From the NCBI GenBank assembly GCA_030064765.1, contig JASJEG010000050.1:1-41932 (forward strand): a DNA stretch of 41,932 nucleotides, read 5' to 3'. Below the pieces are notes generated by a model. The model was not told the origin of the DNA, did no database searches, and saw only the letters and a program-made list of their open reading frames with translations. Every line of letters begins with the position of its first letter. Position 1 is the stretch's first letter. Shown here one piece after another: positions 34,369 to 36,561 of the stretch. Made by a program: the position numbers and the translations under genes. The stretch comes from Acidimicrobiia bacterium. Lineage in GTDB: Bacteria > Actinomycetota > Acidimicrobiia > Spongiisociales > UBA5794.

Positions 34369-36561
34369 GTGACGAGCGCGCCACAAAGAACCGGTGCCTG
34401 GCTACGGCGGCTACTGGCTGCTCCTCGCAATATCTCGATGGCGACCTGGCTGGCCGTTGCCGTGCTCGTGGTCACTGTGACCTCTCTGGTCGTCACTTCC
34501 ATTCTCAGCCTCACCTACGGCCAGGACCTCGCCAACGACGTCTCGGAAAGCGAGCTCGCCGGTCGAGCGACTGTCAAGGCCGAGGAAGTAGCCCGCTACG
34601 TCGAGGCAATGCGTCGGCGGACGGCCGCCATCGCGTCGAGCGAGGGCACGGTCGACGCAGTAGGCCGATTTGCCGATGCCTATGCCGAGCTCGGAAGTCT
34701 CGGAGCTGCGGTGATCGACGAATCGTCCGAGATCGTCGATTCCTTCTATCGAGAGAGATTCGCCCCGGCCCTCGAGGAAACGATCGGAGCATCGATATCG
34801 TGGCGATCGCTCCTCCCAGTCACCGACGCAGGGGTCTATCTCCAGCGCCACTACGTCGCCGCAGCCGAACAAGTTGGCGAAGGGCTCATCGACGACGCCG
34901 GCGACGGAAGCACGTGGTCTGCGGTGCACCGGGAGTTGCATCTGGGTCTCCTCGATACGACTGTCCGCCTTGGTGCCGATGACCTTTATCTCGTGGATCC
35001 GGCAAGCGGAGCGATCGTCTATTCCGCCTCCAAAGCCGCCGATTTCGCAACGAGCCTCGATGTTGGTCCTCACGGGGGAAGCACACTGGGAACCCTGGTG
35101 CGCACCGTCCGGGAAGCGCCCCAACCCGGCACCGTCACTCTCATCGACATGGCTCCCTACGTGGCCGATCTGGGGTCGCCGATGTTGTTCATGGCAAGTC
35201 CGGTGTTCCAAGGGAATCAACTCGAAGGCGTCCTTGTTCTCAAGATATCCGGGCAGCCCCTCGATGCCATCATGACGTCAGAAGGAAGCTGGGGCGACGA
35301 GGGCTTTGGGGATACGGGAGAAGTCTTTCTCGTTGGTGCGGATGGAAGAATGAGGTCGGTCGCCAGGCCCTTTGTCGAGGACCCCACCGGCCTGCTCGCC
35401 GAGCTGGAAGCAGCCGGCACAGCCACGGAAGCTGAGCGGGCGGCGATGGCGGGGGTCGGCACAACTGCCATGTTCCTCAAGGCGGCCGATACGCGCGCCC
35501 TAGTCGCTGCCGCTGATCCAAGCGGAACCAAGCTTGCCAACAACTATCTGTTGCGAGCAGTGTCTTCCGCTGTCGAGCAGGTCGACCTGGGGGCGTTCAC
35601 GTGGTACGTGATCTCCCAGGTTGAAGACGAGGAGCTTTCTGCTCCTATCACCGATTTCCGTCGTGCCCTCTTGGTCGCTGTCGCAGTGTTCGTGATTGGG
35701 ATCACCTTCGGCACCGTTGGCTGGGCCCGGGGGGTGTTTCGACCGGTGCGCAACCTCAGCGAGAAGCTGCGAGACGTCCTCGATGGCCGATCCGTTGCGG
35801 AAATGGATTCACCGGCCCCAGCAACAGATCGGGTTCCGACGGACTTCACGAACCTGGCCAACAGTATCGATGAGATGCTCGAGGCCTTGGATCGGCGGAA
35901 GACCGAACTCGAAACGGCTTCTGCGGAGCGCATCGCCACTCTTCGCAGTCTGCTTCCGCCCGCCGTTGCGGAGCGGGTAGAGAGCGGCGATCGGGAGGTA
36001 ATCGAGCAGATACCGCAGGCAGGCATCGTCGTCGTGATAACCGACGGTCTTGGGGACCTGGTGGCCGAGCAAGGGGCGAGACAGACTCAAGTGTTGCTCG
36101 ATTCGTTGATTCATGAAGTCGATTCCGCCGCCATTCACCACGGCCTGGAGCGAGTCAAGCTGATCGGCGACGCCTACTTCGCCGGATGTGGGCTGAGCCA
36201 GCCCTATCTCGACCACGTTCCCCGATCGGTCTCCTTTGCGCTGGATGTCATCGACATCGTCAACGAAATCAACCTGCGCCACAAGACCCGGTTGCGCCCT
36301 GCCGTCGGAATCCATAGCGGTCCGGTAACTGTCGGTCTCACCGGCAGCATGCGACTCGTATACGACCTATGGGGCGAAGCAGTGCGGGTCGCCCACTTCC
36401 TGGCGCGTCAGGCGCACGACGGTGAGATTCTCGTGACAGATGACGTGCGCACCCTGTTGCCGCCCGATGTCATAGTTGCCGCCAAGCCGGGCATTGTGCA
36501 GGACATGGCAGTGTTCGCGGTGGAGGGCGAACACTCCCCGGTAGAGGCAAGCCATGAGTGA
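34369..36561 (+). CDS. Membrane sensor (dCache-like) - HAMP - class III adenylate/guanylate cyclase-like protein, catalytic residues degenerate
   Basis: GTG start after GGGGAGAGGCA. N-terminal TM; sensor motifs DDLYLVDPASGAIVYSASKAADFATSLD and GFGDTGEVFLVGADGRMRS; second TM and HAMP; cyclase region IVVVITDGLGDLVAE, RVKLIGDAYFAGCGL, AVGIHSGPVTVGLTGSMRLVYDLWGEAVRVAHFLAR. Confidence 0.88.
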   Translation: MTSAPQRTGAWLRRLLAAPRNISMATWLAVAVLVVTVTSLVVTSILSLTYGQDLANDVSESELAGRATVKAEEVARYVEAMRRRTAAIASSEGTVDAVGRFADAYAELGSLGAAVIDESSEIVDSFYRERFAPALEETIGASISWRSLLPVTDAGVYLQRHYVAAAEQVGEGLIDDAGDGSTWSAVHRELHLGLLDTTVRLGADDLYLVDPASGAIVYSASKAADFATSLDVGPHGGSTLGTLVRTVREAPQPGTVTLIDMAPYVADLGSPMLFMASPVFQGNQLEGVLVLKISGQPLDAIMTSEGSWGDEGFGDTGEVFLVGADGRMRSVARPFVEDPTGLLAELEAAGTATEAERAAMAGVGTTAMFLKAADTRALVAAADPSGTKLANNYLLRAVSSAVEQVDLGAFTWYVISQVEDEELSAPITDFRRALLVAVAVFVIGITFGTVGWARGVFRPVRNLSEKLRDVLDGRSVAEMDSPAPATDRVPTDFTNLANSIDEMLEALDRRKTELETASAERIATLRSLLPPAVAERVESGDREVIEQIPQAGIVVVITDGLGDLVAEQGARQTQVLLDSLIHEVDSAAIHHGLERVKLIGDAYFAGCGLSQPYLDHVPRSVSFALDVIDIVNEINLRHKTRLRPAVGIHSGPVTVGLTGSMRLVYDLWGEAVRVAHFLARQAHDGEILVTDDVRTLLPPDVIVAAKPGIVQDMAVFAVEGEHSPVEASHE

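Follow-up and report, generated by a model that had tools for sequence, protein, structure and literature searches.

Two cyclase-like receptors lacking catalytic residues are encoded together with an MscS-type channel in an Acidimicrobiia bacterium

Results

A three-gene unit of two cyclase-like receptors and a channel

The stretch of DNA analysed here (the window, 41,932 nucleotides) comes from an Acidimicrobiia bacterium whose genome is a 3.16 Mb draft in 242 contigs. Among the open reading frames of the window, we found three consecutive, overlapping genes on the + strand, encoding a receptor-like protein designated P1, an MscS-type channel and a second receptor-like protein designated P3:

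34369..36561, + strand: P1, TM1-dCache-TM2-HAMP-class III cyclase-like protein of 730 aa with a GTG start (Pfam, hydropathy)
36554..38080, + strand: MscS-type channel with a C-terminal CNBD-like domain, 508 aa; its start overlaps the end of P1 by 8 nt
38077..40215, + strand: P3, TM1-extracellular region-TM2-HAMP-second, more degenerate cyclase-like protein of 712 aa

The P3 gene overlaps the channel gene through an ATGA. According to Pfam and hydropathy, P1 and P3 share a common plan of a transmembrane helix, an extracellular region, a second transmembrane helix, a HAMP domain and a class III cyclase-like domain; in P1, the dCache_1 match (E 6e-8) lies below the Pfam cut-off and the HAMP match is weak. 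The channel consists of an MscS beta domain and a C-terminal cNMP_binding domain by Pfam.

P1 orthologues were present in 17 genomes of the order and later also in other lineages, and the complete unit likewise occurs outside the order. The closest named relative, an Acidimicrobiia MAG with 86% identity in P1, was the sole close relative found in a single scan with this one protein. The order P1-channel-P3 was constant in the genomes of the order that carry the unit, as far as the contigs permit (P1 in 17 and the channel in 16, the remaining contig, G080, ending at P1), and most copies of the unit show gene overlaps of 4-8 nt. The gene neighbourhood around the unit is conserved in the nearest relative only. 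SulP and DUF389 were rejected as conserved outside partners, being found beside the unit only in that relative, as were DUF6069 and AI-2E, which did not occur in any retrieved stretch, many of these being short. In the window itself, a SulP family permease with a STAS domain is encoded at 40247-41863 (-), convergent with the operon, and a second MscS-type ORF at 22839-23768 (-) is distantly similar to the channel, with 27.6% identity in an alignment of 181 aa confined to the MscS part. One genome (G053; L037, C2:1-20000, 5397-10947) has an open channel frame while each of its two cyclase-like genes is broken into two frames, reflecting either sequencing error or decay.

Active-site residues of the P1 cyclase-like domain

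A sequence-only reading of the window had placed a class III cyclase-like domain at 35970-36561. Checking of the DNA located the motifs ITDGLGDL, RVKLIGDAYFAG and YDLWGEAVRVAHFL in this interval of the GTG ORF 34369-36561 (+), and the fold was confirmed by Pfam Guanylate_cyc (PF00211; P1 residues 560-698, E 2.7e-25, above cut-off), AF2 and Foldseek. The AF2 model of the domain, A1, reached a pLDDT of 89 and a pTM of 0.85; its best Foldseek match was VC1 of adenylyl cyclase (1azs_A, rmsd 1.6), and Rv1625c was also matched. The domain and its active-site positions are as follows:

35911..36540, + strand: P1 cyclase-like domain A1, as aligned and folded (AF2, Foldseek, alignments)
36037..36039, + strand: Ile at the metal-1 Asp position (single-sequence alignment, family profile)
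36157..36159, + strand: Lys of adenine recognition, kept (21/22 orthologues)
36169..36171, + strand: metal-2 Asp, kept (19/22 orthologues)
36301..36303, + strand: Ala in place of the triphosphate Arg, which is R484 in VC1 (0/22 P1 have a basic residue here)
36364..36366, + strand: Asp of adenine recognition, kept (22/22 orthologues)
36385..36387, + strand: Arg at the transition-state Asn position (Asn in 0/22)
36397..36399, + strand: Phe at the transition-state Arg position (Arg in 3/22)

Rv1625c, AC5 and cyclases of the same order align gap-free with P1 from YD to the Asn/Arg positions. Since the alignments with Rv1625c and AC5 are also gap-free through YDLWGEAVRVAHF, the Asn corresponds to Arg and the Arg to Phe in P1, in agreement with the sequence-only reading. 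That reading had further held that the metal and adenine residues are kept. This was borne out for the Lys, the metal-2 Asp and the adenine Asp, but not for the metal-1 Asp, which it had seen in the Asp of ITDGLGDL. When AGIVVVITDGLG is compared with ASVLFADIVGFT, the metal-1 Asp corresponds to Ile, and the Asp of ITDGLG (36043-36045) falls at +2, opposite V/E. A profile of the 22 orthologues against PDB chains gave the same metal-1 register for AC5, AC8 and AC9, and the AF2 model of A1, with a strand up to residue 45 and a helix from 47, agrees with Ile at metal-1. Of the two metal-binding Asp expected in an active class III cyclase, P1 has only the metal-2 Asp, and the loss of the triphosphate Arg is an additional one that the sequence-only reading had not noted.

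A conserved Asn/Arg pair elsewhere in the fold was also looked for in the alignment. A1 contains no invariant or nearly invariant Asn, and an alternative pair within the domain was rejected, the sole candidate being a family-specific Arg (LAR) at +3, three residues past the lost transition-state Arg, in 18/22 orthologues. We also observed a nearly invariant Cys in P1 (A1 C93).

Conservation of the losses and selection on the genes

The metal-1 Asp and the Asn were found in none of the 22 P1 orthologues and the transition-state Arg in three, and all P1 have replacements at several further positions that do not vary in active cyclases. The Lys/Asp substrate pair of active class III cyclases is present in P1 and absent from P3. 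Judging from these alignments, the residue losses of P1 are a family trait. As a control, we examined the ten other class III domains of the host genome, which kept the metal-2 Asp and the transition-state Arg in 10/10, the Asn in 9/10 and the metal-1 Asp in 9/9 readable cases. Since these domains are largely intact, the P1 losses are not due to chance. Likewise, the metals, the adenine Asp, the Asn and the Arg are kept in ten reference domains taken from other genomes in the order. The dN/dS values between the window and its nearest relative were 0.10 for the P1 domain, 0.12 for the CNBD and 0.21 for the P3 domain; therefore, the genes are under selection, and pseudogene decay was ruled out on this basis.

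Reciprocal losses in P3 and the composite site

P1 and P3 form separate, fully supported paralogous clades in the tree. The second cyclase-like domain was delimited as follows:

39751..40143, + strand: P3 cyclase-like domain (Pfam PF00211 above cut-off, alignment)

In the window, P3 keeps the metal-1 Asp, the metal-2 Asp and the triphosphate Arg and has Arg in place of the Lys, Gly in place of the adenine Asp, Arg in place of the Asn and Ala in place of the Arg. None of the 16 P3 proteins carries the Lys, the adenine Asp, the Asn or the transition-state Arg. The metal-1 Asp is found in 4/16, all in the window's genus, and is elsewhere mostly Ser/Thr, and the triphosphate position is basic in 15/16 P3, as compared with none of the P1 orthologues.

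In mammalian adenylyl cyclases, C1 provides the two metal sites and the triphosphate Arg, and C2 provides the Lys, Asp, Asn and Arg. We scored these seven roles in the composite sites of P1 and P3, counting as kept a Glu in place of a metal Asp, a His or Lys in place of the phosphate Arg and a Lys in place of the catalytic Arg. Site A (P3 as C1 and P1 as C2) keeps 3-5/7 and the reverse site B 0-1/7 in 14/14 genomes, which share ancestry and do not represent 14 independent events. Site A of the window keeps 5/7, namely both metal Asps, the triphosphate Arg, the Lys and the Asp, and what is missing is exactly the Asn/Arg pair. Outside the window's genus, site A keeps 3-4/7 in all copies but one.

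As read from the aligned positions, the active site is split between P1 and P3 in the manner of the C2 and C1 of mammalian cyclases. An obligate heterodimer that has kept a single relic pocket would be expected to show this reciprocal pattern. The pattern does not prove a heterodimer, and the reciprocity could partly be drift. Since P3 outside the window's genus loses metal-1, metal-nucleotide binding may be restricted to one genus. The sequence-only reading had proposed a pseudocyclase, possibly a sensor; the family-wide catalytic loss, the purifying selection and the retained adenine pair speak for this view, but the domain is better read together with P3, which has reciprocal losses and appears to be its partner.

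The CNBD-like tail of the channel

37598..38002, + strand: CNBD-like domain, A2 (profile, alignment, AF2, Foldseek)
37826-37828, + strand: Leu at the phosphate-cassette Glu position of the CNBD-like tail (alignment)
37853-37855, + strand: Gln at the cNMP-binding Arg position of the CNBD-like tail (alignment)

The window channel has the MscS core and the CNBD fold of a bCNG channel, and its tail was modelled by AF2 with a pLDDT of 90, the best Foldseek matches being CRP-family proteins, including SthK. The cNMP-binding Glu was found in 0/21 channel tails, in which FG is followed by Leu, Val, Ile, Met or Pro, and the Arg column is not conserved (4/21). A new invariant Asp-Cys (A2 D95-C96, window 37880-37885) is present in 21/21 tails. 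From these alignments, the presumed receiver of cAMP also appears to be devoid of ligand chemistry. The tail could still bind cNMP in a non-standard pocket, and cAMP is probably present in the host cell because the genome has other cyclases.

Related two-gene pairs

A two-gene form, consisting of a cyclase and an MscS-CNBD channel, was found in genomes from three further families, two elsewhere in the phylum and one within the class. In the seven cyclases of this form, the metal-2 Asp is kept in one, the Lys in one, the adenine Asp in six and the triphosphate Arg in seven, the metal-1 position is acidic in 6/7, and the CNBD of the pairs is likewise degenerate. In a tree rooted at midpoint only, P1, P3 and the two-gene cyclases form three fully supported groups. 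These pairs from other Actinobacteria resemble the present unit in having a dCache-HAMP-cyclase-like gene followed by an MscS-CNBD channel, both degenerate, but they contain one cyclase gene instead of two and have lost another set of residues. We take them to be probably of the M. tuberculosis Rv2435c-Rv2434c type. Rv2435c has been recorded as a double-Cache adenylate cyclase (PMC4822843), and a 2004 survey of actinobacterial cyclases mentions Rv2435c and Rv2434c (PMC2447327).

Discussion

The sequences and their conservation, the gene order and overlaps, the losses of the cyclase and CNBD signatures and the purifying selection are direct observations. They suggest that direct contact replaced an old chemical relay between sensor and channel. 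We propose that P1 and P3 pair as a heterodimer with the class III cyclase fold and act as a membrane receptor that senses through Cache, P1 corresponding to C2 and P3 to C1. The single composite site of the pair would be a relic that still accommodates a purine nucleotide, in the window's genus probably together with metal, and without the Asn/Arg pair it would make little or no cAMP. An outside signal would pass through TM2 and HAMP and rearrange the two cyclase-like domains. The MscS channel, which is co-translated with them, would receive this rearrangement at its degenerate CNBD-like tail through direct contact, and its opening would thereby be set; the nucleotide pocket may sense the nucleotide state of the cell. 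Heterodimerisation, nucleotide binding, catalytic inactivity and contact gating are steps that we infer from sequence. We give a probability of about 0.5 to this reading, in which the MscS channel is gated through contact with a P1-P3 heterodimer that senses through Cache and has a single relic nucleotide pocket. More tentative is the version in which the chemistry of the relay is lost at both ends, the channel is gated by contact and, in the window's genus, the Arg replacing Asn in P1 may reach the metal Asps of P3, take the place of the metal and lock the pocket.

The two chief rivals are a module without any nucleotide binding and, in the window's genus, a slow cyclase. In a purely structural module, the Lys and Asp would be kept for fold stability and the dimer would pass a conformational change to the channel. 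The absence of the metal-1 Asp and the triphosphate Arg from P1, together with the poorer site A outside the genus, is consistent with this possibility, which we consider rather doubtful, as the Lys and Asp are kept in nearly all or all P1 while the other invariant residues of active cyclases have been replaced throughout. Less probable again, P1 and P3 could together be a functional nucleotide cyclase, perhaps a slow or unusual one, whose transition state is stabilised by the Arg that has taken the place of Asn or by the +3 Arg. This is a main rival because the composite site of the window is nearly complete and Ma1120, which has Ala at the Asn position, is nevertheless active, showing the Asn to be dispensable (PMC4215837); the frequent +3 Arg in P1 also fits. 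Loss of the Asn alone is therefore no proof of inactivity. However, the transition-state Arg of P1 is lost as well (19/22), the metal-1 Asp is gone from 12/16 P3 while the rest of the module is conserved, and the supposed receiver is also without cNMP residues.

The last of these points also counts against the classical circuit of a standard bCNG system, in which P1 and P3 would make cAMP and cAMP would open the channel via the CNBD. The domain make-up of cyclase, MscS and CNBD is that of such a circuit, but the catalytic residues and the cNMP-binding Glu are lost throughout, and we regard it as very improbable. That the genes are decaying without function is scarcely credible: many active-site residues are indeed lost and both cyclase genes of G053 are split, but dN/dS is about 0.1-0.2, the frames are open in nearly all copies and the overlaps are conserved.

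The proposed pseudocyclase heterodimer resembles class III cyclases (PF00211; Rv1625c, mammalian AC5 C1/C2) in fold, dimer-type motifs, the Lys/Asp pair and the metal-2 Asp and, in the case of AC5 C1/C2, in the division of roles between two halves. It differs from them in that P1 is without the metal-1 Asp and the triphosphate Arg, both P1 (0/22 and 3/22) and P3 (0/16 for both) are without the transition-state Asn/Arg, and both adjoin a channel with a degenerate CNBD. The bCNG channels, reportedly described by Caldwell et al. in 2010, a paper cited in PMC4560390, as MscS superfamily channels with a CNBD, have the same succession of MscS core and CNBD fold; in contrast to them, the present channels have lost the cassette Glu in 21/21 and have no conserved Arg, and the window channel is co-translated with two cyclase-like receptors. 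Channels of the KCNH type contain a CNBHD, a CNBD-like domain without a cNMP signature that works in gating without cNMP. The present channel resembles them in having a CNBD-like domain that lacks this signature, but their pore is unrelated and they have no cyclase-like partner. An anti-phage Pycsar system, which would require an active PycC cyclase and a CNBD effector, was considered and rejected, the PADLOC scores being marginal (16.0, 14.4, 22.3 and 16.3 bits) and the catalytic residues absent. Our literature search, which covered the 2004 survey outside its body text, found no paper on a pseudocyclase-channel module; earlier remarks on the Rv2435c-Rv2434c pair are possible in that body text (PMC2447327).

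Pseudokinases are well studied, while bacterial pseudocyclases have hardly been described, and the word pseudocyclase occurred in none of 20 papers listed by one literature search. In the present unit, the sender and the receiver of a cyclic nucleotide signal have jointly lost their ligand chemistry, and their genes still overlap and are under strong selection. If our reading is correct, gene sets like P1-channel-P3 should be left out when cAMP producers and cAMP-gated channels are tallied, as should the degenerate two-gene pairs in other Actinobacteria, and direct control of an ion channel by a bacterial receptor would be possible. The P1-P3 pair would also be an independent case of a C1/C2-like division of the active site between two paralogues, the step that lies behind the mammalian adenylyl cyclases.
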